From Candidatus Aenigmatarchaeota archaeon (GTDB lineage Archaea > Aenigmatarchaeota > Aenigmatarchaeia > QMZP01), in contig JACPNN010000013.1 of the NCBI GenBank assembly GCA_016185435.1, forward strand, positions 55,156-119,155: 64,000 nucleotides of DNA, in the 5' to 3' direction. The number at the start of each line of letters is the position of its first letter. Position 1 is the first letter of the stretch. Below the pieces are notes generated by a model that was not told where the DNA came from, ran no database searches, and saw nothing but the letters and a program-made list of their open reading frames with translations. Shown in pieces: positions 465-52,198 of the stretch. Position numbers and translations under genes: made by a program.

Positions 465-3461
465 ATGAGGGATAAAGGAAATATGGCCGAATACAACCAT
501 CTGAAAATCGAAGGTGAAATTCATCAAAAGTGGAAAGCAGAAAGAGTAGCTGAAAAGATAGTCGATACGGACTGGAAAAGGAAGAAATTCTATCTCCTCG
601 ACGGCCCGCCATATGTGAATGGCGTCCCCCATGTCGGCCATGCCAAAACCACGGTATTCAAGGACATCTGGGGGAAGTTCAAATTCATGCAGGGCTTCGG
701 GGTATGGTTCCAGCCGGGTTTCGACTGCGGCGGCCTGCCTATTGAGAACAAGGTGGAAGAGAAATTGGGCATAAGAAGCAAGACTGAAATTGAGACTAAG
801 GTGGGGGTGGACAGGTTTATAGAGGAATGCAAGTCCTTCGCCAAAGGGAATGAGCCTGTATGGCTTGATTTTTACAAAAAGATAGGGGCCTGGAGAGGAT
901 GGATGGAACCCTATCTGACTTCAGAAAACTATTACCTTGAATCAGGCTGGTGGACAGTCAAGCAATGGCATGACAAAGGCCTGTTTTCAGAGGGCCTGAG
1001 GCCGGGCTTCTGGTGCCCCCGCTGCGAGACAGTCCTGGCCGGGATAGAGGTGACTGAGAGCTACAAGAACCTGGAGGACCCCTCCATCTTTGTCAAGTTC
1101 CCAATAGAAGACAAAAAAAATAAGGGCAAGGAATTTCTGCTTGTCTGGACCACTACGCCCTGGACCCTTCCTGCAAATGTTGCAGTTGTCGCCCATCCCG
1201 ATGAGACATATGTAAAGGCTGATGTGAACGGGGAAAAACTGATACTGGCTGAAAAGCTGCTCCCTGAAATTGAAAATAAAGGATTTTCATGTAAGATTCT
1301 GGAAAAATTTTCAGGCAAAAAACTGGATGGAATCAAATACAAGCCTGTACTTGATCTGCCGGTTCAAAAGGAAATATCAGACTCGCCAAAAGCCCATACT
1401 GTATTGCTGTCAATCCCTGTCATGAAGAGGAGGGTGGCCAGCAAGACGCAGGTAAAGAGTGAAATAGGAGAATCGGATGAATTCGGCCACATGGTGACAA
1501 TGGAGGCTGGGACAGGGCTGGTGCATACTGCCCCTGGTCACGGCGATGCGGACAGCAGGGTCGGGAAGCATTATGGGCTTCCAGAACCCTCTCCTGTTGA
1601 TGAGAAAGGAAGATTTACTGAAGAGGCTGGAGATCTGGCTGGAATATTTGTGAAAAAAGCGGATCCTCTGATAATTGAAAAGCTAAGAAAAAACAATCTT
1701 CTGCTATATTCAGGAAAAATAACCCACTCATATCCCCTGTGCTGGAGGTGCAAGACGCCTCTGATATACAGGATGAGCAGGCAGTGGTTCCTGAAGATGG
1801 ATCTGCTGAAGGAAAAGATAATAGACGCCAACAAAAAACTCAGATGGCTGCCTGAATTCGCAAGGGAGCAGTACAATAACCTGATTTCTGAGGCCCCGGA
1901 CTGGGCTGTCACGAGGCAGAGATACTGGGGAATCCCTTTGCCGATATGGAAGTGCGGGAGGTGCAATTCAATGAAAGTAATTGGCTCGAGGGAGGAATTA
2001 AGGAAAAATTCAGTTGAAAAAATTCCCGAAAACTTCGACCTCCACAAGAACCTTGTGGACAGGGTAAAATTGAAGTGCACTAACAAAGGCTGCGAAGGGA
2101 AAATGGCCAGGGAGAAGGACATCATGGACGTCTGGTTCGACTCGGGAATAGCGCCATGGGCCTCGCTTGGCTATCCTTTCAGGAACAAGGAATTATTCGA
2201 AAAGCTGTGGCCTGTAGACCTTGTGAATGAGGGCCAGGACCAGGTAAGGGCGTGGTTCAACACCCTGATGGTGTGCGGCTTTGCCACTTTTGGCAGGGAG
2301 CCGTACCGGACTGTCTGCCTCAACGGCTGGACCCTGGATGAGAAAGGGGAGAAGATGAGCAAGAGCCTGGGGAATGTGATACTGGCCGAAGACGCCTGCA
2401 GGCAGCTCGGAGCAGACGTCATGAGGCTCTATATCTGCCATGATGTGGCCCCATGGGAGACCCAGAAGTTCAGCTTCAGGCAGGCCGGCGATCTGAAGAG
2501 ATTCATGAATGTATTATGGAACACCTATAATTTTGCGGAGACGTATGCTGCAAAGGAAGAGTATGCAGAAAAGGCAGAATTAAAAATAGAGGACAAGTGG
2601 ATAATTTCAAAAATAAATTCCATAAACAAATCAGCCACAAATCATATAGAGAATTTCGAGTTCCATCTGGCCGCGAGGGAGCTGGTAGATTTCCTTCTGA
2701 ATGACCTCTCAAGGTGGTATATCAAAATTATAAGAGACAGGCTCGCCCCAACATATTGGAAGGAAGACAAGAAAGCGGCATCCTTTGCCCTGAGATATGT
2801 CCTTGAGAGATATTCAGTTTTGCTGTCTGTATTTTCCCCCTTCATTTCTGATGCAATATATTCAAAACTCAGGGGAAAAGGCAGCGTGCATCTTGAGGAG
2901 TGGCCAAAGCCTGAGGAAAGCAGGATAGGAAAGGGCCTCGAGGATCATATGGAAAAGGCAAAAGTGGTTGTAGAGGCCATAAATGCCGCAAGGTCTGAGA
3001 AAAAGGTGAAGCTGAGGTGGCCTGTCGAATATGTAAGGATAAAATTCAAGGATAAGGAAGACATCAAATCAATAGATTCTGTAAAGGATGTAATAGCCTT
3101 GCTTTCCAATTCCAAATCAATAGAGATGTCGGACAGATTGAAGGAGCCTTTTGAATTCTCCCTGGGCAAGCTCGAAATAGGCAAAGTCCTGATGGACAAG
3201 GCCGTAATAAGGGAGATAATAAGGCACGTGCAGGAGCTGAGGAAGAAGGCCGGGATGAATGTGCATGAGAAGATTGAGCTTTTCATCAAATCTGACCCTG
3301 AATCAGAAAAACTGGCGGAAAAAAACAGGCAGGAACTTCTTTCAGGGGTGAATGCATCCAAAATAAATATCGGCCAGGTCCCTGAAAAGCACAAAAAGGA
3401 AAGGCTTGAGGTGGAGGGGAAGGTTTTTGAGATTGGTTTTGTCAATACAAATCAAAATTAA
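465..3461 (+). CDS. ileS: Isoleucyl-tRNA synthetase
   Basis: 998 aa; DGPPYVNGVPHVGHA (HIGH region), WTTTPWTLPANVAV, GEKMSKSLGN; start may be 483. Confidence 0.97.
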   Translation: MRDKGNMAEYNHLKIEGEIHQKWKAERVAEKIVDTDWKRKKFYLLDGPPYVNGVPHVGHAKTTVFKDIWGKFKFMQGFGVWFQPGFDCGGLPIENKVEEKLGIRSKTEIETKVGVDRFIEECKSFAKGNEPVWLDFYKKIGAWRGWMEPYLTSENYYLESGWWTVKQWHDKGLFSEGLRPGFWCPRCETVLAGIEVTESYKNLEDPSIFVKFPIEDKKNKGKEFLLVWTTTPWTLPANVAVVAHPDETYVKADVNGEKLILAEKLLPEIENKGFSCKILEKFSGKKLDGIKYKPVLDLPVQKEISDSPKAHTVLLSIPVMKRRVASKTQVKSEIGESDEFGHMVTMEAGTGLVHTAPGHGDADSRVGKHYGLPEPSPVDEKGRFTEEAGDLAGIFVKKADPLIIEKLRKNNLLLYSGKITHSYPLCWRCKTPLIYRMSRQWFLKMDLLKEKIIDANKKLRWLPEFAREQYNNLISEAPDWAVTRQRYWGIPLPIWKCGRCNSMKVIGSREELRKNSVEKIPENFDLHKNLVDRVKLKCTNKGCEGKMAREKDIMDVWFDSGIAPWASLGYPFRNKELFEKLWPVDLVNEGQDQVRAWFNTLMVCGFATFGREPYRTVCLNGWTLDEKGEKMSKSLGNVILAEDACRQLGADVMRLYICHDVAPWETQKFSFRQAGDLKRFMNVLWNTYNFAETYAAKEEYAEKAELKIEDKWIISKINSINKSATNHIENFEFHLAARELVDFLLNDLSRWYIKIIRDRLAPTYWKEDKKAASFALRYVLERYSVLLSVFSPFISDAIYSKLRGKGSVHLEEWPKPEESRIGKGLEDHMEKAKVVVEAINAARSEKKVKLRWPVEYVRIKFKDKEDIKSIDSVKDVIALLSNSKSIEMSDRLKEPFEFSLGKLEIGKVLMDKAVIREIIRHVQELRKKAGMNVHEKIELFIKSDPESEKLAEKNRQELLSGVNASKINIGQVPEKHKKERLEVEGKVFEIGFVNTNQN
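3397..3440 (+). repeat. ileS 3'-end repeat, copy 1 (native)
   Basis: 44 bp, 41/44 identical to 3973-4016; encodes ERLEVEGKVFEIGF. Confidence 0.93.
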
Positions 3462-3526
3462 TGTTCACTCCGCTATCGCCGACAAGGTTACAAATATATA
3501 GCTTACAGTTAAGTTATAAAATTATT

Positions 3527-3985
3527 ATGCAAGACAAAAAAAGCGGATGGGATACACTGCCTATTGCAATAAGAACTGTGATTATAATATTTGTTGCCAA
3601 AGCTCTTCTCGGCGTTTTTGCAATAATGGTTTTGTCAGCTTCAATGCCAAGTGTTACCCTTGGGACTACATCTGGCCAGGAAATGAAGCCCCTTTCATCC
3701 TTCGATTATGTGGGAAGTGCCGTGGCATCTTCAGTTTTTTATGCGCTTATAGCTCTCTATTTCATAGAACCTCTCCTTTATTTAGGTGCGGCGATACTCT
3801 TACAGTCAATGACCAGAATTAGCTTCTATCTGGCCGCATTCTTATCTTTATTGTCACTGCTTAGCATACCATTGGGGACAGTTCTTGGGTTGGTATCACT
3901 CTATCTGCTGATTTCAAGTATGGAATATTTCGGCTTTAAGCAGGTTCACAATAAGCCAGTTACTGAAAAACCAGGAAAGGCTTGA
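3527..3985 (+). CDS. Small multi-TM membrane protein (cargo between two copies of the ileS 3' end)
   Basis: MQDKKSGWDTLP... with about 3-4 hydrophobic segments; internal ATG at 3527. Confidence 0.6.
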   Translation: MQDKKSGWDTLPIAIRTVIIIFVAKALLGVFAIMVLSASMPSVTLGTTSGQEMKPLSSFDYVGSAVASSVFYALIALYFIEPLLYLGAAILLQSMTRISFYLAAFLSLLSLLSIPLGTVLGLVSLYLLISSMEYFGFKQVHNKPVTEKPGKA

Positions 3986-4016
3986 GGTGGAGGGGAAGGT
4001 TTTCGAGATAGGATTT
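3973..4016 (+). repeat. ileS 3'-end repeat, copy 2
   Basis: Encodes QERLEVEGKVFEIGFDKTD* in frame (stop at 4029-4031); the three differences are synonymous. Confidence 0.93.
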
Positions 4017-4102
4017 GATAAAACAGATTAATGCCTATTGAGAGGCTGCACTGCATTACAGCCTGAAAAAGGTATAAATATCTTAGTTTTGATAGATATG
4101 CT

Positions 4103-4669: not shown

Positions 4670-4676
4670 GCGAAAT

Positions 4677-4799: not shown

Positions 4800-4953
4800 C
4801 TTATTTAATGGGGATGCTGTTGGCTATATTATTTATGCCTTGAAAATGCTTTTCAAATCCCTTAAATTAGATACTCTGTTTTGTAGATTTTTTGGCTAAA
4901 TAAGTTTAAATATATGTTTAAACAAATATAAAACAAAGCTGGGGGGATGAATT

Positions 4954-8590: not shown

Positions 8591-10402
8591 ATGTTCTACC
8601 CCGAAGAGATGCAGAAAGCTTTTATCGCCGTGCACAAGTCCAGACAGAAACAGGTGATAGAGGAGCTTTACAGGCTCAGGGCAGTGCACGTGAAAGAGCA
8701 TGAGTCAACAGATGGTTTCCCTATAGGCTTCCCTCTGGAGGGCGCCGAAGAGCTTTCTGAGCTGCTCCTGAGGCTGAAATCCATAAGGGCGGCCCTTGGC
8801 ATAGGCGGCCAGAAGGCAGGCGCAGAAGGCATCAGCATACAGCAGGTAAAGGATCTGGAAAAGGGCCTTTCGGCAAGATTGGGCCCTCTCCTGGAAGAGC
8901 TGAAATCGCTGTCTGACAGCCTTTCTGCTGAGCAGTCGAAGCTTGAGTCGCTGAATTTTCTGCGCAGAGCCGGTATAAAGCGGCTTGACGTGCTGCGCGA
9001 GTATGAGGGGCTTGAAATAATATCAGGATATGCGAGGATTTCTGAATTGAAGGCCAGGGATTGCATAGCCTTCATTGAGAAGGTGGGAAAAGAGAAGGCC
9101 TTTGTCCTTTTTGCAAAAAAAAAGGAATCGGGCAGAATAAAGGAAAGGCTGGCAAAAGCAGGCTTTGCGGAATTCAGGCCGAATCTGGATGCGAGGGGGC
9201 AGGTTTCAGAAGAGATAGTTAAGCAGGAAGAGATCATATCCAGGCTGCTGGAAAAAAAGAGCGAATTGGAAAAAAAGCTTGCCGGGATGCGCGGGGAATA
9301 TCAGGATAGGGTTTCAGATTCGGTCTTCTGGCTCGGGGAAAGGCTGAAGATAGCTGAACTGCCGCTTAAACTGGGGGCAAGCTCAAGCGTCGTGCTCATT
9401 TCAGGATGGATACCCAGGAAAAGCCATGAGGCGGTGTCAAAGGCTTTGCGAAAGGCTGCCCCGAACTCCTATATCCGTTTTGAGGAAACTGATGACGCGC
9501 CTACGAAGATGGACAATCCCGTTCTGGTAAGGCCTTTTGAGTTCTTCGTGAACCTCTATTCAACTCCGGCCTACAGGGAGATCGACCCCAGCTTCCTGAT
9601 TTTCCTCACCTTCCCCCTCTTCTACGGCATGATACTGGGGGACATAGGGTACGGCCTGATTGTCCTTCTCCTGGCCCTCGGGATAAGGCTCGGCACGGGC
9701 AAGGCAAGGCCCATAGCTGACGTGACCATACTTTCAGCCCTTGTGGCCATAGCCTTTGGCTTCCTGTTCGGAGAGTTCTTCGGCCATGAAGAGGTCTTTG
9801 GTTACCCGCTTGAGCCCGTCATAAGCAGGGTTCATGATCTGAACAGCGTATTGCTGCTTTCTGTGGTGATAGGCCTTGCGCACCTGAGCCTTGGCTACAT
9901 ATTTGCCATAAAAAATGAGATAGGGCATAACTGGAAGCACGCGATTTTCGGAAAGACAGGATGGCTGCTGGTTGAAGTCGCTTTCGCTTTCCTGCTGTTT
10001 GACCTTCTGTTCAAAATAAGGTTCCTTGACACAATGGCTTCCTTTGGGATACTTGCCATGGGGGCACTACTTGTCGCTTTAGGGGAAGGCGTGATGTACC
10101 TGATTGAAATTCCTTCTCTTCTCTCCAATATCGTCTCGTACACACGATTGGCTGCCTTCGGCCTCGCAGGCACGAGCATAGCCATAGTCGTGAATACGAC
10201 TGCCGGCCAGATGTTCGAGAGCGGGGGATTTATGACCGTAGCGGGCATATTAGTCCTTGTTGTAGGCCACGCATTCAATCTGGCTCTGGCCATGCTGGAC
10301 TCCTTCCTCCAGTCGCTCCGACTGCACTATGTGGAGATGTTCTCCAAGTTCTATAAGGGGGCCGGGAAGGCTTACAGGCCGTTTGGCGGGGGGCAGGGCT
10401 GA
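8591..10402 (+). CDS. atpI: V/A-type ATP synthase subunit I
   Basis: Soluble N-half plus multi-TM C-half; GDIGYGL, SYTRLAAFGLAG, LHYVEMFSKFYKGAGKAYRPF. Confidence 0.95.
   Translation: MFYPEEMQKAFIAVHKSRQKQVIEELYRLRAVHVKEHESTDGFPIGFPLEGAEELSELLLRLKSIRAALGIGGQKAGAEGISIQQVKDLEKGLSARLGPLLEELKSLSDSLSAEQSKLESLNFLRRAGIKRLDVLREYEGLEIISGYARISELKARDCIAFIEKVGKEKAFVLFAKKKESGRIKERLAKAGFAEFRPNLDARGQVSEEIVKQEEIISRLLEKKSELEKKLAGMRGEYQDRVSDSVFWLGERLKIAELPLKLGASSSVVLISGWIPRKSHEAVSKALRKAAPNSYIRFEETDDAPTKMDNPVLVRPFEFFVNLYSTPAYREIDPSFLIFLTFPLFYGMILGDIGYGLIVLLLALGIRLGTGKARPIADVTILSALVAIAFGFLFGEFFGHEEVFGYPLEPVISRVHDLNSVLLLSVVIGLAHLSLGYIFAIKNEIGHNWKHAIFGKTGWLLVEVAFAFLLFDLLFKIRFLDTMASFGILAMGALLVALGEGVMYLIEIPSLLSNIVSYTRLAAFGLAGTSIAIVVNTTAGQMFESGGFMTVAGILVLVVGHAFNLALAMLDSFLQSLRLHYVEMFSKFYKGAGKAYRPFGGGQG
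10337..10391 (+). repeat. atpI 3'-end repeat, copy 1 (native)
   Basis: 55 bp, 53/55 identical to 11015-11069. Confidence 0.93.
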
Positions 10403-10403: not shown

Positions 10404-10733
10404 TTATTTCAGCTTCAGGAGGTTCCTGAGAATTTCGTCAATCTTCTCCATAATTTTCGGCTCCAGTTTGCCTATCCTGGTTTTCAGCCTTGCCTTGTCA
10501 ATCGCCCTTATCTGGAACACGAGAGCGACAGATTCATCGCTCAATCCATTTGCAGGAGATGGAGATAAAGTAAGGGTATAGCCAAACCTCAAAGCCTGAA
10601 GGTTTGATGTGACCGGTATGACTATGCATATTGAAGTCTGGGTGTCTGAAATCAAAATTGCGGGTCTTGTGCCAATCTGTTCATGGCCCGAAGTTTCTGC
10701 CAAGTTTACTATCCAGATTTCCCCTTTTTCCAT
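10404..10733 (-). CDS. MazF/PemK-family endoribonuclease toxin
   Basis: MEKGEIWIVNLAETSGHEQIGTRPAILISDTQ... VIPVTSN. Confidence 0.85.
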   Translation of the reverse strand: MEKGEIWIVNLAETSGHEQIGTRPAILISDTQTSICIVIPVTSNLQALRFGYTLTLSPSPANGLSDESVALVFQIRAIDKARLKTRIGKLEPKIMEKIDEILRNLLKLK

Positions 10734-10942
10734 AACTGGCTCTCAAAATTTGCCCAGGCCTCATCGCTGAGATTCTCCCAGGCCTGCAGTTCAAGCTTCA
10801 AACTCAAATTCTTGCTTATTGTGTCCAGATAGAACAGGAGGGCTTGGTTTACCACTTCATTTTCATTCAGGCCCAAAGCATGCGCAGCTTCTCCTACCTT
10901 TTTCTCGACTTCCTGTGAAAGTTTCACTTGCATGGCATTCAC
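10709..10942 (-). CDS. RHH-like antitoxin partner of MazF-like toxin
   Basis: Overlaps the toxin start; MQVKLSQEVEKKVGEAAHALGLNENEVVNQALLFYL. Confidence 0.75.
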   Translation of the reverse strand: MNAMQVKLSQEVEKKVGEAAHALGLNENEVVNQALLFYLDTISKNLSLKLELQAWENLSDEAWANFESQLWKKGKSG

Positions 10943-11014: not shown

Positions 11015-11069
11015 ATGTTCTCCAAGTTCTACAGGGGGGCCGGGAAGGCTTACAGGCCGTTTGGCGGGG
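11015..11069 (+). repeat. atpI 3'-end repeat, copy 2
   Basis: Encodes MFSKFYRGAGKAYRPFGGE* in frame; 53/55 to copy 1. Confidence 0.93.
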
Positions 11070-11177
11070 AATAAAAGGGCTGCATCTTCTGCATTAAGGC
11101 AAAAATCACTATCATGCCGTCATAAGATTCGGGATTGGCAGGCCAAAGCATATATTTCTTGCCTCCAATGCTTGTCT

Positions 11178-11483: not shown

Positions 11484-11832
11484 AGCAGAGCCGCGGCTGT
11501 CATGTATATGCGTACGACTTTCGAAAATTCATCTCCCATCATGCATGGCCATCAGTTTCAGGCTGCGTCTTTTGCGTCATCTACCCCTGGAAACAAATAA
11601 AAGCATCGGCATGCAGAATATTCTGTGAAATCCCATCGCTATTTTTTTGTTATACGGCAGCCAAATCTCTGCCGCTTTATTGGCGTTCTGGTGCTGCAAA
11701 GCTGTCAGGAGAAAAACGACGCCAGGAAAGGTACTGAAATTTATTTCAGTAAAACAAAAAAGGTCCGGTCAGGAGACTGCAGCCATGTGCATCTCTACCT
11801 GCTCATAGCTGCAGTCCTGCCGGGCCCCACCT

Positions 11833-12057
11833 TCAGCCATTTTCCTTCTTCTTCTTTCTCCCTTCGGGCGGAAACTTGACGTGAAGATACCAGCCAGATA
11901 GAGTAAAGGACAAGAGGATGGCAATAGCCCATGCTAGGAATATGCCATACTTTGTTGCTTTCCCGAAAGCTGGATTGATTCCGACGCCAAGGGTTAGAAT
12001 CAATCCGAGACCCAAAAGAACCGCCAGAAAGCTTAATAAAGCTGCTGGTTTTGTCAT
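11833..12057 (-). CDS. Small two-TM membrane protein
   Basis: MTKPAALLSFLAVLLGLGLILTLGVGINPAFG...; next to extra subunit K. Confidence 0.6.
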   Translation of the reverse strand: MTKPAALLSFLAVLLGLGLILTLGVGINPAFGKATKYGIFLAWAIAILLSFTLSGWYLHVKFPPEGRKKKKENG

Positions 12058-12084
12058 TGTCTCCTCCTTTGCACTCCTTTGCAG

Positions 12085-12393
12085 CTACATGAGAAAGACC
12101 AACACAAAACCCAGGATGACGAGAGTCTCGGGTATCGTCAACACTATCAATCCCGGCCCCAGGTTCTTTTCGTTTTCGGCAATTGCACCAATCAGAGCCG
12201 CCCCGATCTTACTTTGGGCATGCCCGGTTCCGAGGGCCCCGCCTAGAAAAGCCAGCCCTCCAGCTACTGCTTTTGCAGCTTTCAGCCACCACTCTTGACC
12301 TTGGGCCTGGACGGGTTCCTGCGCACTGGCGACAACAACAGTTGCCAGCACAGCCAATACGACAGCCAATACGAACCGCAACAGATTTTTCAC
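12085..12393 (-). CDS. Second V-ATPase proteolipid (subunit K/c) paralogue with signal-like leader
   Basis: GTG start inferred; QSKIGAALIGAIAENEKNLGPGLIVLTIPETLVILGFVL aligns to AtpK; extra N-terminal hydrophobic leader ending near VVASAQ. Confidence 0.82.
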   Translation of the reverse strand: MKNLLRFVLAVVLAVLATVVVASAQEPVQAQGQEWWLKAAKAVAGGLAFLGGALGTGHAQSKIGAALIGAIAENEKNLGPGLIVLTIPETLVILGFVLVFLM

Positions 12394-12538
12394 TTCTACC
12401 ACTCTCCTTTTTTCTTGTAAAATTGCCAAAGACTTGCCATCCAAATAACTTATTCTGTCTTTATCACATCCCAAGACATTTTTGTATGCATAAATTTCAT
12501 GATGTCATGGGAGCGCTTATTGTGGCCTTCAGCCTATA

Positions 12539-15122: not shown

Positions 15123-15139
15123 AATAAAAGCATTCGAAC
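15123..15139 (+). repeat. Direct repeat flanking AbiEii-like insertion, left
   Basis: aataaaagcattcgaac, identical to 16266-16282. Confidence 0.85.
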
Positions 15140-15157: not shown

Positions 15158-16234
15158 TCAGCTATCACTCTCGGGATCGACACTGACCTTCCACTGCTGT
15201 TTTTCCTTTTCCCTCTTTTTCTTGAAGGAGTGCCAAATCTCCCCAAAATCCCCTCCCATTTCTGCCATTTGCACGGTATCTCTCTGTTTTGCCACAGATC
15301 TCATAAGGTCGCCCAGCTCGCCTTCCAGTTCAGCCGCAATCACATCAATCATCTGGCCTGCCGCTGGATTCCAAGCCTCCATTGTGCGGAGAAAAAGCTC
15401 TTCGCTTTCCCAGTCCCTTCCGATATGGTCTCTCCATGTTTTGCTGAGATATTTCTTGTCGATAGATGCATATCCCCAGAGCACCATTGCGTCGTAGAGA
15501 TCGCAGGCGGACCTGAGGAAAGTCTTGAACCTCCTGAATTCCGCATCCTTCCCCTCGCTTTCAAAACGCTTCTTCTCAGCCTTGTGAAGCTCCTCTCTCA
15601 TCTTCCATATTTCTTCGAGCCACTCTTCATAAGAGGGTGGTGGAACATATATCAGTCCCCTGTTGCCCTCGAAAAATTTCATCAGCCTGTAATGCTTGAA
15701 AGCTATAATATCTTCTGGAGACATCAGACGAACATTAACTGAATAGCCGCTGTTCAGTGCATATTCCATATGCCTTGCATGTGCAAATTCCCTTCTAAGC
15801 CTTCTGCCCATTCTCTCGAAATACGCTTTGCCCATATTCGGCACATTGACTCCTACATCTGCCTTTTCGTTTTCACTGTCACCCAGCTGGATGCCCTTTA
15901 TCGTCAGAATATAGTTCCATCCTGTCTCACGGAATTCATGCCCAAAGCCCATTCCAGATGCCGTATCTGCCAGCTGCTGGAATTCTGCCCTGAACTCCTC
16001 CTTTGTGATGCGCCTTTTGGCTGCAAGGTCAAGATCAGACGTTCCTCTCTTAAGATGCTCCGGGAAATAGAATTCGCATGCAGAGCCTCCTCTCAGGTAC
16101 AGGCCCCTCTCTTCGGAAAAGAGGAAGCCGAATATGGCTTCGGCAAGATACTCTGGAAGGGCAGCGATTTTCTTGTACCTTGCTTGGGGAGAGGGTATAT
16201 ACGAAATTTCTGTCATACTAGTGATTTCGAGCAA
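15158..16234 (-). CDS. AbiEii/AbiGii-like nucleotidyltransferase
   Basis: YLRGGSACEFYFPEHLKRGTSDLDL (GGS...D.D); lone gene inside the ATPase operon. Confidence 0.75.
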   Translation of the reverse strand: MLEITSMTEISYIPSPQARYKKIAALPEYLAEAIFGFLFSEERGLYLRGGSACEFYFPEHLKRGTSDLDLAAKRRITKEEFRAEFQQLADTASGMGFGHEFRETGWNYILTIKGIQLGDSENEKADVGVNVPNMGKAYFERMGRRLRREFAHARHMEYALNSGYSVNVRLMSPEDIIAFKHYRLMKFFEGNRGLIYVPPPSYEEWLEEIWKMREELHKAEKKRFESEGKDAEFRRFKTFLRSACDLYDAMVLWGYASIDKKYLSKTWRDHIGRDWESEELFLRTMEAWNPAAGQMIDVIAAELEGELGDLMRSVAKQRDTVQMAEMGGDFGEIWHSFKKKREKEKQQWKVSVDPESDS

Positions 16235-16265: not shown

Positions 16266-16282
16266 AATAAAAGCATTCGAAC
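16266..16282 (+). repeat. Direct repeat flanking AbiEii-like insertion, right
   Basis: aataaaagcattcgaac. Confidence 0.85.
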
Positions 16283-38418: not shown

Positions 38419-39009
38419 CTACTCTGAAAATCCTCGCTTCAGCACCATTTCTTTCAAGTCGCTTATCTCTTTTCCTATAACCCTGACTATTTCCTCATCC
38501 AGCTGGCTGGCCACCAGTTTTATTTTGCTCACAAATTCCCTTGCATTTTTCATTACAACGTCAGTTTCCTTGTATGTCACTGAAATCCCATACTGAACTG
38601 TTTCTCTGGCCCATTTGGCTTTCCAAAGGTTATCTATGTATTCTTCTTTTATTGTTATGGCCTCTATCCTGTCCTTTTGAACCTTCATCTCATTGAATTT
38701 CTCTATCAGCTCTCTGCCGATATGTTCCCCAAAGAAATACTCCAGCACGGACGCTGTTGTTGCATGCTCCTTGCTTTCCAGGCCTATTTTTGCTAATATG
38801 GCCAGTGCAGACTGATACATCGCATAATAAGCGGCAATGACAACCCAGTCTTCGTGGCCGAGGCTGCTCAAATCTGTCATGACTACAAGGTTATGATCAG
38901 CTTTTTTGATATGACCGTCGCTCATGTGAACATTTGGTTTTGCTGTCCTGAGCCCCCTTTCTCCCTTCGCCCTTCTCAGTGCCTTTATAAGTACTCCTTT
39001 TGCCTTCAT
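38419..39009 (-). CDS. HEPN-domain protein
   Basis: Internal ATG at 39009; AAYYAMYQSALAILAKIGLESKEHATTASVLEYFF; overlaps the MNT stop. Confidence 0.72.
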   Translation of the reverse strand: MKAKGVLIKALRRAKGERGLRTAKPNVHMSDGHIKKADHNLVVMTDLSSLGHEDWVVIAAYYAMYQSALAILAKIGLESKEHATTASVLEYFFGEHIGRELIEKFNEMKVQKDRIEAITIKEEYIDNLWKAKWARETVQYGISVTYKETDVVMKNAREFVSKIKLVASQLDEEIVRVIGKEISDLKEMVLKRGFSE

Positions 39010-39596
39010 TTTCCGAACACCAGATTCACGAAATTTTTTGCCCCGTACAGGACGCAATGGCCGCTGATGATTTCCTTTATTATTGCCTTTTCCTTCTGTT
39101 TTCTGAATTCCTGAGAGGTTATTATCACCGGATTTATCTCCTTTCCGTATTTTGCATACATCTCTTTTGCTGTTCTGCCGATTTCTGCCTTCCTGCCTGC
39201 CACAACAAGGATATCAACATCGCTCTCCTTTGTTGCGGCACCTTTGGCATATGAGCCGAATAAGACGATGGCATCTACGCCCGGCTGTGTGGACAGGGAT
39301 TTTACCAGGTCTTCAAGCATAAGCCCCAGTTCCCTGTTTCTTCCGTAAAACTCATCCTTTTTTTCGATTTCGCCGAGCACCATCAGAGCCAGAGTCTTTT
39401 CATTTTCCATGTTAAGGGAGCAGATATAGGATTTGCCGACCCTGCTTTTGTCTATCACATCATCTTTGGCCAGTCTGCCTGCTGTTCTGTGGACAAAGGA
39501 GTAATATTCTTCCAGCTCCCTTGCAATTTCATTTATCGTAAATTTCCTTCCAGGGTTTCTGGCCAGCAGATCAACAATCCTCAGTTCAAGATCCAT
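39006..39596 (-). CDS. wHTH-MNT nucleotidyltransferase
   Basis: VLFGSYAKGAATKESDVDILVVAGRK. Confidence 0.85.
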   Translation of the reverse strand: MDLELRIVDLLARNPGRKFTINEIARELEEYYSFVHRTAGRLAKDDVIDKSRVGKSYICSLNMENEKTLALMVLGEIEKKDEFYGRNRELGLMLEDLVKSLSTQPGVDAIVLFGSYAKGAATKESDVDILVVAGRKAEIGRTAKEMYAKYGKEINPVIITSQEFRKQKEKAIIKEIISGHCVLYGAKNFVNLVFGK

Positions 39597-39799
39597 ATTA
39601 TCACTTTTTATGATAATATTATCACTATTAGTGATATATAAGCCTTTTGTCCTACATTCTACAGCCTGGTTTCCGGCCAAGGGAGAAACAGAGGCTGTAC
39701 ATAACCAGACATATGGTTATGGGCTATTTAAGCCTCAGCAGAGGGCGCCATGCCGCTTGCCGCTATGCAAATTAGAAAAAAAGAAAATCGCGTCAGTCT

Positions 39800-39862
39800 T
39801 ACCAACAGCCTTGGACAGGCCTGCCGAAGACCAAAATCTGTCCAGCCTCCCGATGCATGGCC
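39800..39862 (-). pseudogene. GKPV-family 3'-end remnant B
   Basis: Reverse-strand frame encodes AGQILVFGRPV; stop codon lost. Confidence 0.65.
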
Positions 39863-39898
39863 TCCGGCATTTTTAAGCCCAAGCACGAAAAACATCCA

Positions 39899-40351
39899 AT
39901 GCTCAGACACCATATGGATTCCAATGTTGTGATAGGTGTCTTCATATTCAAGGACGATGACACACGGGAAGCCTGCAAAAATTACTGCACAGCCATTGGG
40001 CACAGGTACGAGGGCTTTTTGTCTATTGTTTCCGCAGGAGAAATCGCCAAGATTTTCGGCTCAATCCCCGAAAGGCTCGCAAGGGAGGAAGCCTTCATCT
40101 TCCTGTCGGATTTCATTTTCAGGCAGAAAGTGAGGATAGTTGGCATAGAGGAGAGCGACATCATTCTTGCGAGAGAGCTGAAACCAATGAATCACCTGTG
40201 TGATATCCCCGAACTGGTTTCGCTGGCCGTTGCCATACGACAAAATGCGGAAGTTTTTATGACGCTGGACGAAGAAATGCTGAACGAGCGCTTCAGAGGC
40301 GAGGTGCAGAAGCTCTATAGGATAGCTATTCAAAAGCCGAGATATGACTAA
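39899..40351 (+). CDS. PIN-domain protein
   Basis: MDSNVVIGVFIFKDDDTREA ... VFMTLDEEMLNERF. Confidence 0.75.
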   Translation: MLRHHMDSNVVIGVFIFKDDDTREACKNYCTAIGHRYEGFLSIVSAGEIAKIFGSIPERLAREEAFIFLSDFIFRQKVRIVGIEESDIILARELKPMNHLCDIPELVSLAVAIRQNAEVFMTLDEEMLNERFRGEVQKLYRIAIQKPRYD

Positions 40352-40473: not shown

Positions 40474-40635
40474 AGTGAATATTTTGCACCTATCTTTATA
40501 AAAGCACCGTCGATAGAGTTTTTCGATAAAAAGTGCAATTTTCAGCCTCCCCATTGAGCCAAATCGTGATATCTGCTTCTGTTAAGCAAAAACAAAGAGA
40601 AAAAAAGCAATTCGTGTTCAGCCCAAACAGCCTCA

Positions 40636-40810
40636 GACAGGCCTGCCGAAGACCAGGATCTGTCCAGCGTCGTACGTTCCGATGCATGGCTTGGGGTAGA
40701 ACAGCTTGAACTCAACTTCAGCCTGTCCTGTCGGAACCAGCGTGTTAAGTGCCCAGCCATTTAATTGGCCAGGTTTGCCTGGGTTAAAGAAGCTGCCATA
40801 AAAATTTTCG
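40636..40810 (-). pseudogene. GKPV-family 3'-end remnant C (about 57 codons)
   Basis: Reverse-strand frame: SENFYGSFFNPGKPGQLNGWALNTLVPTGQAEVEFKLFYPKPCIGTYDAGQILVFGRPV*. Confidence 0.85.
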
Positions 40811-40837: not shown

Positions 40838-41482
40838 CTAAATTTTGGACCCGCCATTGCCATGCAGGCTCTGGCTCATCATATTATGGATCAGCGTCTG
40901 AAGGACATAGGGAGCCTCCAGTTCCTTGCTTCCCATGAATTTCCCTATCCATTTTCTGAAAGCATTCTGTGACATCCTGAACGATTCTTTTGCATCATTC
41001 CCTTTGACAAGAGAAATCCCAACCTGATTGCTCGAATCCAGATTTGGGGCCGCGATGGCGTCGGACAATGGCCTGCTGAGCCTATTGGGATCATAGTAAA
41101 AGGCGAAATCCTCTTCATAGCCGATGAAGGCGGAGCAGTTTGCTGAGTCCGTGCATTTTCTCCCCAGCTCCTTTGCAGAGCTGCATGCCACCGAATAGAC
41201 TATTTTCCTGTCAAGAAGATTTTCGTTGTGCCCCAGCGATATCAGCGTGTCATCGTTGTATCCTGCGATCTCCTTCTCATTTCCATGGCCGTTGAAAAGC
41301 ACAAGAACCGGTTGTTTGTCCCTTATAATCGATTCCATATCCTTCCTGTTCGCTCTTTCACCTTTGAGATCGAAGATCTCCAAGCCGTGCCTTCTTGCCT
41401 CTTCAATCACTTTTCCTGACCACGCATGCAAATATGCTGTCACATCGTCATGGTCAGGCCTCGTTATCAGCAGTCTGCTCAT
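40838..41482 (-). CDS. CHAT/caspase-like cysteine protease (copy 1)
   Basis: PVLVLFNGHGNEKEIAGY ... KIVYSVACSSAKELG; His/Cys dyad spacing typical of CHAT/C25 clan. Confidence 0.75.
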   Translation of the reverse strand: MSRLLITRPDHDDVTAYLHAWSGKVIEEARRHGLEIFDLKGERANRKDMESIIRDKQPVLVLFNGHGNEKEIAGYNDDTLISLGHNENLLDRKIVYSVACSSAKELGRKCTDSANCSAFIGYEEDFAFYYDPNRLSRPLSDAIAAPNLDSSNQVGISLVKGNDAKESFRMSQNAFRKWIGKFMGSKELEAPYVLQTLIHNMMSQSLHGNGGSKI

Positions 41483-41696
41483 GCGCCAGTTTCTCCATCT
41501 CCCTCTTGAAAAACTTCAGGTAGCCTATCTGCATTTCAACCATTTTCCTGCCTATAGCATCCCGTTTTTCCAGATGGGTCAGCATGTCGTCCCTGCTCAA
41601 TGACCCGTAGGATCCGAGGGCAAGCTTTATATGGGCCGGCATAGACTCAACCCTGTGCTTCACAACCTCCCAGTCCTCTTCAGCTATTTCTGTCAT
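41454..41696 (-). CDS. Small conserved protein B of CHAT cassette (copy 1)
   Basis: SLSRDDMLTHLEKRDAIGRKMVEMQIGYLKFFKREME; similar to 51455-51670. Confidence 0.7.
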   Translation of the reverse strand: MTEIAEEDWEVVKHRVESMPAHIKLALGSYGSLSRDDMLTHLEKRDAIGRKMVEMQIGYLKFFKREMEKLAHEQTADNEA

Positions 41697-41872
41697 ATTA
41701 TGTCTTTCTCCGCCATCTTCCTGAGTATTTTATCCCCAAGCCCGGTTTTATCCCTTATCTCCTTGTACGCCCTTGCCCAGCTTATGGGCTCGCCATCCAT
41801 AACGAGAACAGTCAGCTTCCTTTCCTCCAGCGGCAGATAGGAATAAACCTTCATGAACCTCTCCATGCTCAT
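41693..41872 (-). CDS. Small conserved protein A of CHAT cassette (copy 1)
   Basis: MSMERFMKVYSYLPLEERKLTVLVMDGEPISWARAYKEIRDKTGLGDKILRKMAEKDII; similar to 51663-51863. Confidence 0.7.
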   Translation of the reverse strand: MSMERFMKVYSYLPLEERKLTVLVMDGEPISWARAYKEIRDKTGLGDKILRKMAEKDII

Positions 41873-41950
41873 AATTGATATATCTTTATGAGGGTTTAAA
41901 TGCTGAATGCCGCTGTCACGCCATCCTACAGATGCCTTGCTCTGCCTTTC

Positions 41951-41981
41951 AAACAAAAACAAAGAGAAAAAGAAAAAAAGG
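41951..41981 (-). terminator. T-rich terminator-like motif downstream of GKPV gene
   Basis: aaacaaaaacaaagagaaaaagaaaaaaagg (reverse strand T-rich); related motif at 40586-40608, 43371-43393, 44144-44173, 46201-46231. Confidence 0.6.
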
Positions 41982-42007
41982 AAACCGCGTCTCTTATCCC
42001 AACAGCC

Positions 42008-43273
42008 TTAGACAGGCTTGCCGAAGACTAGGATCTGTCCAGCGTCGTACGTTCCGATGCATGGCTTGGGGTAATGGAGCTTGAACTCGACCTCAGCCTG
42101 TCCTGTCGGAACCAGCACATTGTTTGCCCAGCCAGTCAGTATGGCTGGTAATCCTGGCTGCAAGAAGCTGTCATCGAACAATGGCCTTGCGCCAGTGCAA
42201 AGTCCTTGCGTAACGATGCTTCCCCAGCTGCACTCAAAGTTCTGGTTCGGGTTGGTTATATGCGCCCATCCTTCGTCCGGATTGTCACCCGGGAAACCGA
42301 CAAGCTGTGTTATAAGCGTTCCAGACCTTGCCCTGTAGTAGACTCCTGTAAGGCTATTCAAGCCGCTACCTTCAACGTCAATTTTGTTCGTCTCCGGACA
42401 CTTGCTAGGGCCGTTTGAGTCGAAAAGGTCGGTCATGGCTATGAATACCCACAAAGAGACCTTCTGTGCCGTGTTCTCTATGAACAGCCTGTTAAGGCTG
42501 TGTGCATATTGTTCAGGCATGACTCCTGACTCGAATGTTATCGGCAGGCCGTCGCTTGTCCTGACGTCCATGCTTACGGATGGATTAAGCCTCCACCTCT
42601 CCGCATAAAGGCTGTCCGCGAGGTTGCCTACTGCATCCTTCACGCCTATCCTCAGGGTCACGTCCCTGTCCGGGCTGGTCGGCTCAACCGTATACATGCA
42701 CAGGAATCCCCTGTCGGTGTTGGGGTCTGTATCCCCGTTCTCAATCGGAACTGTAATTATTGTGCAGACCACGTTTCCATTACTGTCAGTTATGCATACT
42801 TGCTTTTCCTTCACATTGTTCCCGGTCGGCCTTAATCCATCGCACCTGCATTTTTCCTCGTCCCCGCCAACCTGCGGGTTGCAGGCCCTCTCTAGAGGTA
42901 TCTCATTGCAGACAGCCTCCAGGCCGTCATCTATCCTGACAAAGGCATGGCCGATATCAAGCGCCCCATTGGGGTCTCTCACAATAACCTTGAACTGTAT
43001 CATCTCCCCGTTCCACGCATAGTCCCCCGGCCTCAGGTCCAGCACATTTATCGTCGGCGCATCGGCGCCAAGCTTCTCCTCTCCGGGCGGCACAAACGGG
43101 AAGAAGTCTCCGGGGCTTATGTTGATGATCCTCTTGTGTATGCATACCTGGGTGTCAAAGTTTCCTGGCTGCGCTGAAGTCCCTGCGCTTCCTGCAACAG
43201 CGTCGGCAGAGGCAAAGCCGGAAATTCCTAAAATAAATATGCCAGCCAGGAGCAGAAGCATTAAGCCTTTCAT
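42008..43273 (-). CDS. Secreted GKPV-family surface protein (paralogue D)
   Basis: Start MKGLMLLLLAGIFILGISG; SVSMDVRTSDGLPITFESGVMPEQYAHSLNRLFIENTAQ ... GKPV. Confidence 0.8.
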   Translation of the reverse strand: MKGLMLLLLAGIFILGISGFASADAVAGSAGTSAQPGNFDTQVCIHKRIINISPGDFFPFVPPGEEKLGADAPTINVLDLRPGDYAWNGEMIQFKVIVRDPNGALDIGHAFVRIDDGLEAVCNEIPLERACNPQVGGDEEKCRCDGLRPTGNNVKEKQVCITDSNGNVVCTIITVPIENGDTDPNTDRGFLCMYTVEPTSPDRDVTLRIGVKDAVGNLADSLYAERWRLNPSVSMDVRTSDGLPITFESGVMPEQYAHSLNRLFIENTAQKVSLWVFIAMTDLFDSNGPSKCPETNKIDVEGSGLNSLTGVYYRARSGTLITQLVGFPGDNPDEGWAHITNPNQNFECSWGSIVTQGLCTGARPLFDDSFLQPGLPAILTGWANNVLVPTGQAEVEFKLHYPKPCIGTYDAGQILVFGKPV

Positions 43274-43496
43274 ATCCACAGAAGCCTGAAGAATTCTTTC
43301 TTCAAAACAATTAAAAACAGCATGCCCTTGGCGTAATGCGTCCGGCATCCCTGCATCAATTCTTCTCAGGGAAAAAACAAAGAGAAAAAGAAGGGACATG
43401 CCTCAAGGGCCTTTATGACTTCTTTTCTTATCATGTCAATCACGGTTTTCTGGGAAAGCGGGAGCCTCTTTATTAATCTCAAAAATACCCATAATT

Positions 43497-48330: not shown

Positions 48331-48454
48331 TCTGTTTCGGCGTCAAGTGGTCTGAAGAGATGATTTTTATCGGCTACAGCTGATGATGTTCTTCTGGAAT
48401 CGCTTTATTCTTCTCATTGAGGGATTTTTAAGGGGGCGAGGAGAAATTAATCTT

Positions 48455-48982
48455 ATGGCCAAAGGCGCAAAGGAAGAAAAGCCAAAACTGTCAAGGTTGG
48501 CTCTTATTGTAGCAGCTTCCCTCGTGATTGGAATCATAATCGGCTTCTATGCCTCAGGCATGGCAGAAAAAAAGGACGACACGAAGGAGAAGATGAGGGA
48601 GATGTTTCCAGAATTTCTACAAAATATTGCTTTTGAAGAGAAGTCGATAAATTTGTTAGAGAATTATTGCGACTCTAAGCCAAATCAATCAATGTTACTG
48701 CATCTTATTCTTTTCAGATCCGAGACAGAAGCAAAAATTGATCAAGGGTACAGTACTTTATACATTTATTGTGATAAAATGAAAATTATTTCTGATTCTG
48801 AGTGCAACCAATTTTCTTCGTTATTATCGGTATATGATTCTATTTTTTTGATATCTTCAAAAACAATGGCTCAATTCCTCAACAACAGCTTTACCAACCA
48901 GCAAAAACTCTGCGACCTGGCTGGGTACATTAGAAACAAGGATTATGAGGCCATAAAAAAACTAAGGAATGAAATTGGTTGA
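48455..48982 (+). CDS. Membrane-anchored hypothetical protein
   Basis: Internal ATG 48455; single N-terminal TM LALIVAASLVIGIIIGFYASG. Confidence 0.6.
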   Translation: MAKGAKEEKPKLSRLALIVAASLVIGIIIGFYASGMAEKKDDTKEKMREMFPEFLQNIAFEEKSINLLENYCDSKPNQSMLLHLILFRSETEAKIDQGYSTLYIYCDKMKIISDSECNQFSSLLSVYDSIFLISSKTMAQFLNNSFTNQQKLCDLAGYIRNKDYEAIKKLRNEIG

Positions 48983-50707
48983 CTTGCCCTTGATGAGTGT
49001 TGATCCGTCTGTGCTGACTCCTTTTACTTTTGTTTCTGTCGTTATCGGGCCATTCTTGAAATTGATGAAATTATAATATCTTACAATGATGTGCCGGTCG
49101 CCCTCAAGCTTGTAGATGGTGTTCTCTCTGAGCGCCTCCTCCTTGGCATTCTGCATGCACTCTTTCATTGTTCTTGGATCAGTGCCTCTCTTATAACATT
49201 CTCTCGTCTTATCGTTGATTTTTTTCAATATTTTGCCGTAATCATCAGTAAAGATGCCCTTGCTGAAATCGATAATTATCTGAGTAAGTCCGTTAGAGGA
49301 TTTGACCGCTGCCTCTTTGTATAATTGAACCTCTTTCTGGCCGTTGCTGAGAAAGACCTGTATCATGCTGGCCCTTGAGCCATTAAGCGAATCATTGATC
49401 TCAAGATAGGAGATATCCTTGCCCTTTGGCTTCACTTTAACTTCCATTATTCCGAAAACATCCTTCAAGAATGGCTTGTTTCGCTTTCTGATCTCCCTCA
49501 GGGATTTCAGTATATCGAAATCAAGGACGTCAAGCGGATCATCATTTTCGGCCACTGTCAGGCTATAAGGTTCGCCCCCAGGAGGCACATCCCTGTTTAT
49601 CACTTCTATCTTCCATTCGCCTGGCATAGCGTTGTTTATTGTTACAGCTTCAGCATTGTCTCCCGCTGGCGAGCCGTAATAGATATTGCCTTCAGGATCT
49701 ATTACCCTCATGTCAAGATCGCTGCCGCCGAACTTCAGGCTGATGGTTATTGTCTTGACAATAGATTCAAAGAAGCTCCATATCTGCTGGCCTATGTCCT
49801 GAGGCATGTTGCCGAGGAATTCATTAGTGATGACTGATGGCACTGCTTTATCGACTATCTGTGCGCTTTTGAAAGGGAATTCTGGAAAATCTAAGTCAGA
49901 GCCTAATCCTGAGTTAAATGCATTTACATTGATATTCCATTTTTCTAATTGTTTCCTTTCACCTAGGCTTGCATTGATTTTAGTATCCATCATCCTGTAC
50001 TCCTTCAGCATAACACTGTACGACGGATTTCCGGCCTTTTGTTTCACAGGTATTTTGATAATCAGGGCGCTTGACGGCGGCAGTATCCAGTGGCTCTTGC
50101 CCCTGTCGATTGGAAGCTGCTTGTCTGGCTTCTGAAGCGTCGTGATTATGCTGATGAAGTGGCCCATGGCAGCCGCTCTCAAGTTGTCCCTGCTAGTCTT
50201 GTACACATCCAGAATCTTCTCCACCTGCCCCTCGCCGCTGGCGCCGGACACCATGACTGCGGCCTTGGCAGGGTTGGCGCTGTTCACGATTACGGCTATC
50301 TCCACGACCTTGACATATTTCATTATCTCGTCCACGCCCCTCTCGAAAGCATCGCCTATCCAGTCGGGATAAATCTCCGGCTGGCCGGTCTGCTCGAAGC
50401 CGTCCCCAAGCGTCACTTCTATGTTTGTGCCGTTGGGGATGAAAGCTGCTGTGCCGTCGGGAAGTGTCAGATCCCCTCCGTGCTCGAACTTCTCCGGGAT
50501 ATAGATATAGGAGTTTGTCTCGACATCAGGAGAGGAGGGGTTGCTTATCCTGATCTCAAGGAAGCCTGACTTGTACTCGCCATTTATCACCAGAGGCCCG
50601 TCCTGCTCATATGGCGTGGACAGGAATGCGCCGGCAATAGCGGCATAGGAATCCGGCGCCAGCAGGGAAAAGGCAAGAAAAGCAAGCATGAAGGAAATTC
50701 TGGCCAT
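48962..50707 (-). CDS. Secreted protein with PPC-like beta domain
   Basis: Signal peptide; LKFGGSDLDMRVIDPEGNIYYGSPAGDNAEAVTINNAMPGEWKIEVINRD. Confidence 0.7.
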   Translation of the reverse strand: MARISFMLAFLAFSLLAPDSYAAIAGAFLSTPYEQDGPLVINGEYKSGFLEIRISNPSSPDVETNSYIYIPEKFEHGGDLTLPDGTAAFIPNGTNIEVTLGDGFEQTGQPEIYPDWIGDAFERGVDEIMKYVKVVEIAVIVNSANPAKAAVMVSGASGEGQVEKILDVYKTSRDNLRAAAMGHFISIITTLQKPDKQLPIDRGKSHWILPPSSALIIKIPVKQKAGNPSYSVMLKEYRMMDTKINASLGERKQLEKWNINVNAFNSGLGSDLDFPEFPFKSAQIVDKAVPSVITNEFLGNMPQDIGQQIWSFFESIVKTITISLKFGGSDLDMRVIDPEGNIYYGSPAGDNAEAVTINNAMPGEWKIEVINRDVPPGGEPYSLTVAENDDPLDVLDFDILKSLREIRKRNKPFLKDVFGIMEVKVKPKGKDISYLEINDSLNGSRASMIQVFLSNGQKEVQLYKEAAVKSSNGLTQIIIDFSKGIFTDDYGKILKKINDKTRECYKRGTDPRTMKECMQNAKEEALRENTIYKLEGDRHIIVRYYNFINFKNGPITTETKVKGVSTDGSTLIKGKSTNFIP

Positions 50708-50782
50708 CCATAAGTTTCACTCATGCCTTTAAATTCTTTTCAGAAAGATTCAATTTGCTTTGGCAGGGAAGTGAAAATTAAA
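50528..50782 (-). repeat. Promoter plus N-terminus repeat of the 48962-50707 gene, copy 1 (native)
   Basis: 255 bp, about 94% identical and ungapped to 51944-52198. Confidence 0.93.
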
Positions 50783-50815
50783 GCCAGGCGCGTCTTTTTT
50801 CCCGCTCAACTGTTT

Positions 50816-51451
50816 TCATACTCTGGCATGCGGGTTTCCATGAAGCATCTGACAGTTTTTGTTAAAATGGAGAAGCGGCAGTATCACCTGCAGCTCCTCT
50901 GCCGTATGCTTCGAGCTGCTCAAGGTCAGCTCATCTATCCATTTCTGGTATTTCCTCTGTGACTCTGCAAATGCTTCTCCTGCAGTTTTCTTTTTGGCAA
51001 GCTGCCTGGGCGCTTCTATGGCCGATTCCATAAAAGGCCTGGCAAGCTCATCTTCAAGCGGTTTTGCTGTCCTGTTCCTGTCCATATACAGCCAGAACAA
51101 GTCGCCATAGCCGATAAAGGCTGAAGAGTTGCATTCTTTCCCGAGTCTGGCCGCAGAGCTGCATGTGAAGGCGTGGACGATTTTTGATGCAAGCAAAGAT
51201 TCATTTTCGCCGAGAACTATCAGCGGCTCATTGTCATGCCCGCAAATGACGGTGTCTGACCCGTGACCGACAAACGATAAAAACTTCGGGTTTTTGGATT
51301 TTATATTGGTCTCGATGCTGGACTTTGTCACATTCCTGCCATTTATGGCAGTTATTTTCATGCCATTCCTTTCAGCAATATCTATCACTTCTGCGCTCCA
51401 GGCACTGGCATAGGATGTTACCAGATCGAAATCAGGCAGAGTTATGAACAT
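50816..51451 (-). CDS. CHAT/caspase-like cysteine protease (copy 2)
   Basis: PKFLSFVGHGSDTVICGHD ... KIVHAFTCSSAARLGKECNSSAFIGY. Confidence 0.75.
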   Translation of the reverse strand: MFITLPDFDLVTSYASAWSAEVIDIAERNGMKITAINGRNVTKSSIETNIKSKNPKFLSFVGHGSDTVICGHDNEPLIVLGENESLLASKIVHAFTCSSAARLGKECNSSAFIGYGDLFWLYMDRNRTAKPLEDELARPFMESAIEAPRQLAKKKTAGEAFAESQRKYQKWIDELTLSSSKHTAEELQVILPLLHFNKNCQMLHGNPHARV

Positions 51452-51454
51452 TTC

Positions 51455-51670
51455 TTACCCCTTTACTACAGACCTCAGGTAGGATAAATGCGCCTCAACA
51501 ATCTTGATGCCTATTTTGTCGCCCTTCTCAGCATTCATGACATGCATTATTATCTCTTCTCTTCCCATTGGAGAAAAGCCCATGCCTGCGGCTATTAAAG
51601 CATTGTCAGGCATTGATCTCAGCCTTGCCACCACCAGTTCTATTGCGGCTTTTTCTACCATATCAGTCAA
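51455..51670 (-). CDS. Small conserved protein B of CHAT cassette (copy 2)
   Basis: MGREEIIMHVMNAEKGDKIGIKIVEAHLSYLRSVVKG. Confidence 0.7.
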   Translation of the reverse strand: MTDMVEKAAIELVVARLRSMPDNALIAAGMGFSPMGREEIIMHVMNAEKGDKIGIKIVEAHLSYLRSVVKG

Positions 51671-51863
51671 TTATTCCGAGCTTTTTAAGAGTTTTGAGAA
51701 TTCTCTCGCCCAATTCTGTGCCATTGGTGATTTCAGCGTAAGCTATTTTCCAGCTTATAGGCTCGCCATTCACAACCGCCACGATTTCATCCCGTATTTT
51801 TATGGGCAGGTTTGAATAAGCCCTGGTAAATTTCTGGGCAAGCCTTGAATATATCTTTTCCAT
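51663..51863 (-). CDS. Small conserved protein A of CHAT cassette (copy 2)
   Basis: IKIRDEIVAVVNGEPISWKIAYAEITNGTELGERILKTLKKLGIID. Confidence 0.7.
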   Translation of the reverse strand: MEKIYSRLAQKFTRAYSNLPIKIRDEIVAVVNGEPISWKIAYAEITNGTELGERILKTLKKLGIID

Positions 51864-51943
51864 TGCTTATTATTTGGGGCAATTAATTAATAGGCTTAAT
51901 GCCCTGCCTGTCTGCTTGGTTCAAGGGCCAAAGGCAACCGCTA

Positions 51944-52198
51944 AGGAGAGGAGGGGTTGCTTATCCTGATCTCGAGGAAGCCTGATTTGTACTCGCCATT
52001 TATCACAACGGGCCCGTCCTGCTCGTATGGCGTGGACAGGAATGCGCCGGCAATAGCTGCATAGGAATCCGGCGCCAGCAGGGAAAAGGCAAGAAAAGCA
52101 AGCATGAAGGAAATTCTGGCCATCTATAAGTTTCACTCATATCCTTAAATTATTTTCAGCCGGATTCAATTTGCTTTGGCAGGGAAGTGAAAATTAAA
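51944..52198 (-). repeat. Promoter plus N-terminus repeat, copy 2 (truncated gene remnant, MARISFMLAF...SNPSSP)
   Basis: About 94% identical to 50528-50782; N-terminal 60 aa has one substitution. Confidence 0.93.

Follow-up and report, generated by a model that had tools for sequence, protein, structure and literature searches.

Toxin–antitoxin and other small modules between paired gene ends in an ultra-small archaeon: probable insertion by homologous recombination with diverged DNA

Paired gene ends in the window

The window considered here is a 64,000-nucleotide stretch at the end of contig C7 of an Aenigmatarchaeota-like (DPANN) ultra-small archaeon, whose genome of 1.35 Mb in 23 contigs is 95% complete and probably metagenome-assembled. 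At several places within it a small gene module, some of them of toxin–antitoxin (TA) type, lies between the end of a host gene and a second copy of that same end. A preliminary description of this DNA had reported such repeats at ileS, at atpI, at the 5' end of a secreted-protein gene and at genes of a family termed GKPV, as well as a separate 17-bp repeat, and every one of these could be located in the sequence.

The ileS gene (465..3461, plus strand; Pfam tRNA-synt_1) terminates in copy A (3397-3461, plus strand; C-terminus EIGFVNTNQN*), and a second ileS end, copy B (3973..4034, plus strand; C-terminus EIGFDKTD*), follows downstream. The repeat (3397-3455 and 3973-4031) extends over 59 bp at 86% identity, with the first 31 bp exact and the two copies 576 bp apart. 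The enclosed cargo is a small open reading frame (ORF; 3461-3985, with a likely start at 3526, hence 3526..3985, plus strand), which matched no Pfam family and reads from its sequence as a membrane protein. Likewise, atpI (8591..10402, plus strand; Pfam V_ATPase_I) has its end copy A at 10337-10391 and a second end, copy B, at 11015..11072 (plus strand; C-terminus ..FGGE*); 10337-10391 and 11015-11069 differ by 2 mismatches in 55 bp (96% identity) and are 678 bp apart. The cargo at this site (10404..10934, minus strand) comprises a MazF/PemK toxin (10404-10733; PF02452, E=1.4e-25) and a small upstream ORF that reads as antitoxin-like.

On the minus strand, the gene at 48962..50707 encodes a secreted protein with a weak PPC domain. 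Its 5' end and upstream region (copy A, 50528-50782) recur as copy B at 51944..52198 (minus strand) with 94% identity over 255 bp at a distance of 1,416 bp. A caspase/CHAT-like ORF (50816..51451, minus strand) lies in between, in a region related to 41116-41887 at 56% DNA identity, and copy B is adjoined by an AbiEii (52248-53177) and AbiEi (53174-53839) gene pair (52248..53839, minus strand; PF08843, E=5e-26; PADLOC AbiEi, 8e-42), a type IV TA system. The 17-bp direct repeat AATAAAAGCATTCGAAC (15123..15139 and 16266..16282) was confirmed to flank a different, AbiEii-like ORF (15158..16234, minus strand), which is located within the A-ATPase operon, has a weak PADLOC AbiEii match (E=0.0038) and is less well supported as an AbiE system than the pair at 52248-53839. 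No 17-bp repeat surrounds the AbiEii gene at 52248-53177.

The GKPV-family secreted-protein gene at 42008..43399 (minus strand) is accompanied by two remnants of its end region (41957-42174): remnant B (40584..40799, minus strand) with 80% identity to it, and remnant C (39774..39861, minus strand) with 79% identity to 41971-42065. As the GKPV genes form a tandem paralog family (37136, 42008, 46255), these remnants are weaker evidence than the repeats at single-copy genes. The associated modules are a caspase/CHAT-like ORF (40838-41482) with small ORFs including 41693-41962 (40838..41962 in total, minus strand), a PIN-like ORF (39857..40351, plus strand) and, beyond remnant C, an MNT nucleotidyltransferase and HEPN pair (38419..39680, minus strand; NTP_transf_2; HEPN, E=1.5e-6). 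Thus, while the MazF/PemK and, weakly by PADLOC, the AbiEii-like identities given to the cargo earlier held up, the PIN and CHAT labels are unverified: a Pfam scan of the PIN-like ORF 39857-40351 and of the two CHAT-like ORFs returned no match, and the predicted structure of one CHAT-like protein was too poor to be used (pLDDT 44).

The window contains 21 direct repeats that match exactly over 17 bp or more and have their copies no further than 3 kb apart, a figure to which tandem repeats and paralogs contribute, compared with 0 in five first-order Markov sequences. Bacterial ileS loci carried 15 direct and 4 inverted repeats per 1.2 Mb. Local direct repeats in modest numbers are therefore normal, and the argument rests on the gene ends and on the association with TA genes rather than on repeat counts alone.

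Further cases and association with TA and ATPase genes

The remainder of the genome was surveyed in a content-blind sample of 38 stretches (680 kb, about half of the genome) and in a second sample of 15 stretches centred on TA-type genes. At fixed criteria, the 680-kb sample and the window together yielded 24 local direct repeats and 0 inverted ones, whereas stretches from eight relatives contained 2 such repeats in 400 kb (p = 0.0015). Many of the 24 display the same layout of gene end, module and second end at unrelated genes. The search for partial gene-end duplications beside TA genes that the preliminary description had proposed thereby produced at least eight further cases, with MNT-HEPN, VapBC, AbiE-like pairs and DUF4143/DUF234 ATPases as cargo. 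The gene names Rad50, PQQ-like and AbrB used below were read from the sequence, and the remaining names are supported by Pfam. At 3' ends the layout is found, in addition to ileS and atpI, at rad50 (L051, flanking a DUF234 ATPase), at an Lhr-type helicase gene (L151, flanking MNT-HEPN), at a small gene (L152, flanking VapBC-like genes) and, in the TA-centred stretches, at RtcB and NrdD (flanking nucleotidyltransferase-HEPN-type modules). The 5'-end cases are, besides 48962-50707, a TIM-like gene (L155, flanking AbrB/PIN) and a UPF0047 gene (L156, flanking a nucleotidyltransferase pair). In addition, at L154 the ends of PQQ-repeat-like genes flank genes of nucleotidyltransferase and HEPN-like type, and at L050, L060 and L063 the ends of secreted-protein genes form arrays in which they separate modules of AbiE, ATPase and other kinds. 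The GKPV, PQQ and L050/L060 families are paralogous and were given less weight.

The genome contains 29 NTP_transf_2, 17 PIN and 12 DUF4143 matches. A gene was scored as bracketed when flanked by a direct repeat pair whose copies reached 70% identity, did not exceed 450 bp in length and were separated by 150-4000 bp, with a tolerance of 30 bp. The tested set of 53 TA/ATPase genes left out four large NTP_transf_2 proteins (at least 360 aa) and one sub-threshold DUF4143 match. Bracketing was observed for 15 of these 53 genes and for 25 of 424 control ORFs (odds ratio 6.3, p = 3.5e-6), some of the controls still being cargo of other types or members of paralog arrays. An equal frequency of duplications away from cargo, which had been named in advance as the result that would speak against the idea, was consequently not seen. 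In relatives, several of 40 nucleotidyltransferase-centred loci were likewise bracketed by repeats, among them loci at a prepilin-peptidase end (genome G002, L260) and at two gene ends of genome G003 (L264, L269), where the ends flank nucleotidyltransferase/HEPN-type modules, so that the feature is not limited to one assembly.

Divergence between the paired ends

Mismatches between the two copies are distributed unevenly. Counted over twelve gene ends that do not belong to paralog families, third codon positions account for 30 of 46 mismatches (p = 1e-5 against 1/3; p = 0.01 against 0.47, a rough expectation with one copy constrained), and the count for all 17 window and own-genome pairs, paralog families included, is 92 of 167. 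In three pairs the stop codon itself was exchanged with the stop retained (rad50, TAG/TGA; a G002 pair, TAG/TGA; a G003 pair, TAA/TGA), while of the two atpI ends one terminates with TGA and the other with TAA, in slightly offset positions. In most diverged pairs the resemblance breaks off at the stop or start codon or close to it, as fits two lineages that share a coding end and not the intergenic DNA. Furthermore, the mismatches gather on the flanks of an identical block of 21-92 bp more strongly than shuffling produces (combined p = 4e-6), which is the trace expected of a crossover with heteroduplex correction. At ileS, copy B retains the F-D/E-K tail that is frequent among relatives. A drifting duplicate, by comparison, should accumulate mismatches with no preference for codon position or for any part of the repeat, and a mutated stop would usually be lost; the opposite was observed. 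In combination, the third-position bias, the stop swaps, the limits of similarity and the exact blocks favour an origin of the second gene end in a different lineage.

Search for signatures of dedicated integration

In agreement with what had been noted earlier, none of the cargo proteins that were scanned proved to be a recombinase, and only two tyrosine-recombinase loci are present in the host genome. Neither terminal inverted repeats nor a common sequence was detected at the cargo ends, and comparison of 6-8-mers revealed no motif shared among the repeat arms beyond that seen in random windows. An AGGCTT core noticed in three of the window repeats was discarded, since its sharing was no greater than in random windows. 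Judged by these motif and end comparisons, transposons, attC sites of the integron kind and one att system serving all the sites are disfavoured.

Other features of the window and of the surveyed genomes

Between atpI and the next plus-strand A-ATPase genes lies a reversed ATP synthase subunit-c-like gene (12085-12474, minus strand; ATP-synt_C, E=5e-11), with a second small membrane ORF close by (about 11826-12058, minus strand). Elsewhere in the window, an S-adenosylmethionine synthetase ORF (60215-62710, minus strand) appears, from its sequence, to contain an intein-like interruption with LAGLIDADG-like motifs.

Outside the window, 41-bp direct repeats of 95% identity (L065, 7758-7798 and 8609-8649) flank a stand-alone LAGLIDADG-like ORF, giving the same layout with a homing-endonuclease cargo, and 43-bp direct repeats (L066, 10307-10349 and 14921-14963) flank a gene cluster for peptide modification of SagB/YcaO appearance. 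One secreted-protein gene end occurs at three loci of the host genome, G000 (contigs C1, C9 and C13; L233-L239), with AbiE, DUF4143 ATPase or nucleotidyltransferase genes as neighbours, and a full copy of that gene was seen only on C1. A 5496-bp contig of the same genome (C10; L061) carries a 139-bp perfect terminal inverted repeat, which could mark a linear element or have arisen in assembly. Bacterial-type sigma-70 proteins with regions 2 and 4 were also noticed in this archaeal host genome (L068, 14216-15361 and 15551-17836, both minus strand; G000 C20:20166-20369). Sigma70 region 2 was found in 13 of the 61 genomes searched, the host's own included, and genome G010 has three sigma70 matches on the contig that also bears an ileS of archaeal type, so that contamination is a less likely source.

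Discussion

Taken together, these observations make it somewhat probable (about 0.55) that the modules were inserted beside gene ends by host homologous recombination with DNA from a diverged lineage bearing the same terminus. The donor would have carried the module joined to the terminus of the gene concerned, and a crossover within a short exact block of that terminus (about 20-90 bp) would leave the native gene body with a rebuilt terminus, followed by the cargo, the remaining second terminus and the native neighbour. The rebuilt gene would thus carry the incoming end, with the older end displaced beyond the module, and because the gene stays intact no integrase would be needed. Both the crossover step and the form of the donor are inferred; the latter may have been a circle that entered by single crossover, or else a linear fragment whose other side was joined illegitimately. 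Gene termini may be favoured because only there does an insertion keep the gene whole. Moreover, direct repeats are prone to deletion, so that the surviving inserts would be those modules that punish their own loss, and such retention of addictive cargo could generate a TA bias with no need for machinery that inserts TA genes in particular. Of the two routes envisaged in the preliminary description for non-autonomous cassettes, recombination through a carried homology arm is the one supported, the synonymous divergence, the stop-codon swaps and the exact blocks pointing to a terminus of another lineage. Its picture of non-autonomous cargo at gene ends with a diverged second end and an enrichment of TA-type genes is supported as well. 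Use of att-like ends by an integrase is not supported: no motif is common to arms or cargo ends, the genome has only two tyrosine-recombinase loci and every arm is different.

Several points weigh against this interpretation. No flanking repeats were detectable for 38 of the 53 TA/ATPase genes tested (72%), and the codon test is based on 46 mismatches only, with diverged edges trimmed (ileS, rad50, TIM, RtcB). The ileS copy A tail, VNTNQN, is atypical for the family, where an imported functional end would be expected to be otherwise. The exact blocks could stem from later gene conversion or local protein constraint, and the near-identical pairs (Lhr, 30/30; L152 and UPF0047, 97.6%) bear little or no foreign sign and fit a simple target duplication. 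Finally, comparison with the closest genomes, which are from the same family only, yielded neither an empty site nor a donor; the host ileS has 58-59% identity to the nearest Aenigmatarchaeota sequences.

An insertion with long target duplication, in which the host gene end (30-430 bp) is copied, is identical at first and drifts as a dead copy, would give the same architecture, repeat lengths and addictive cargo, and several pairs are indeed 97-100% identical. Drift of a dead copy should nevertheless neither favour third positions nor swap stop codons, and would be expected to leave mismatches uniform rather than clustered, with no reason for similarity to stop at the stop or start codon as it does in most diverged pairs; this explanation is accordingly considered rather unlikely. 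Strain variants of one locus joined in a chimeric contig would also differ mainly at synonymous sites, and a 23-contig assembly that is probably a MAG invites the suspicion. Still, the cargo gives way abruptly to copy B within coding sequence and the junction shows neither overlap nor N's, a result that assemblers seldom generate, and the many cases in the host genome, the additional ones in other assemblies and the specifically TA-type cargo render an artefact improbable.

That the second end is the relic of a neighbouring duplicate gene, with small genes gathered in between, describes the true context of the GKPV array, the L154 PQQ-repeat-like genes and the L050/L060 secreted-protein family. 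At ileS, rad50, RtcB, atpI, NrdD and Lhr, by contrast, only the last 30-85 bp are repeated, and the leftover end directly abuts the cargo; tandem paralogy is refuted for the single-copy genes and highly improbable as a general account. Site-specific integration at gene-end att sites, with a recombinase acting in trans and attP rebuilding the gene, would be in keeping with the gene-end location, the rebuilt genes and the 30-60 bp repeats at ileS, atpI and Lhr, and one extra tyrosine recombinase of 211 aa is encoded on contig C6. The arms, however, differ at every site, share no 6-8-mer beyond random windows, vary in length between 30 and more than 250 bp and also occur at 5' ends, and the cargo ends have no sequence in common, which leaves very little room for this possibility.

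Recombination with diverged DNA could, more speculatively, be part of a cycle in which TA cassettes excise as circles via the flanking gene ends, take one of these ends with them and re-enter the same gene in another lineage by single crossover, a recombinase-free mobility that we regard as doubtful. If it operated, each insertion would recreate the repeats needed for a further excision, and the toxin would penalise cells that lose the cassette. These sites bear on how TA genes arrive and are retained at ordinary places in the chromosome when no mobile element brings them: in the host genome there are about a dozen at which a probable trace of entry, the second gene end, can still be read. The signature of a gene end, a small module and a diverged gene end can be searched for in any well-sampled species. 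No paper on such insertions in DPANN archaea, or for TA modules at gene ends, was found in a literature search that had most subscription journals outside its reach.

Elements inserted by tyrosine recombinases resemble the present sites in that they enter at gene ends and the gene is rebuilt by the incoming copy; here, no integrase is found in the cargo, no core is shared and the arms differ per site. Integron TA cassettes provide a likeness in the arrays of small TA cassettes between repeats (L050, L063), whereas the repeats described here are locus-specific ends of protein-coding genes, among which no attC-like common site was found. In the type VI secretion immunity arrays of Vibrio cholerae, each new module displaces old effector 3' ends downstream, and homology-facilitated illegitimate recombination has been proposed (PMC5361080). 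The boundaries observed here, with a homologous anchor on one side and an abrupt non-homologous join on the other, are alike in the one-sided anchor, the illegitimate other side and the old ends left behind after successive events. The V. cholerae events concern dedicated effector loci, as also proposed for Rhs loci, while the present ones are scattered over unrelated housekeeping genes and include 5' ends.

Restriction–modification (RM) genes, according to the work cited through PMC3874152 (Nobusato et al. 2000; Furuta et al. 2010), insert with long, variable target duplications of ~100 bp. This type of insertion (Kobayashi) shares with the present case an addictive module, the absence of a recombinase of its own and long variable repeats of host DNA, which here measure 27-432 bp; the recombination proposed here would be a variant either of it or of the homology-facilitated illegitimate kind. 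The cargo differs, being RM genes there and TA genes, DUF4143/DUF234 ATPases or a membrane protein in DPANN archaea here, and one target is duplicated there, whereas the copies here resemble gene ends of different lineages; this holds for the diverged pairs, the near-identical ones being unable to discriminate. The present sites would carry a mechanism suggested for RM genes over to TA modules and into DPANN archaea.

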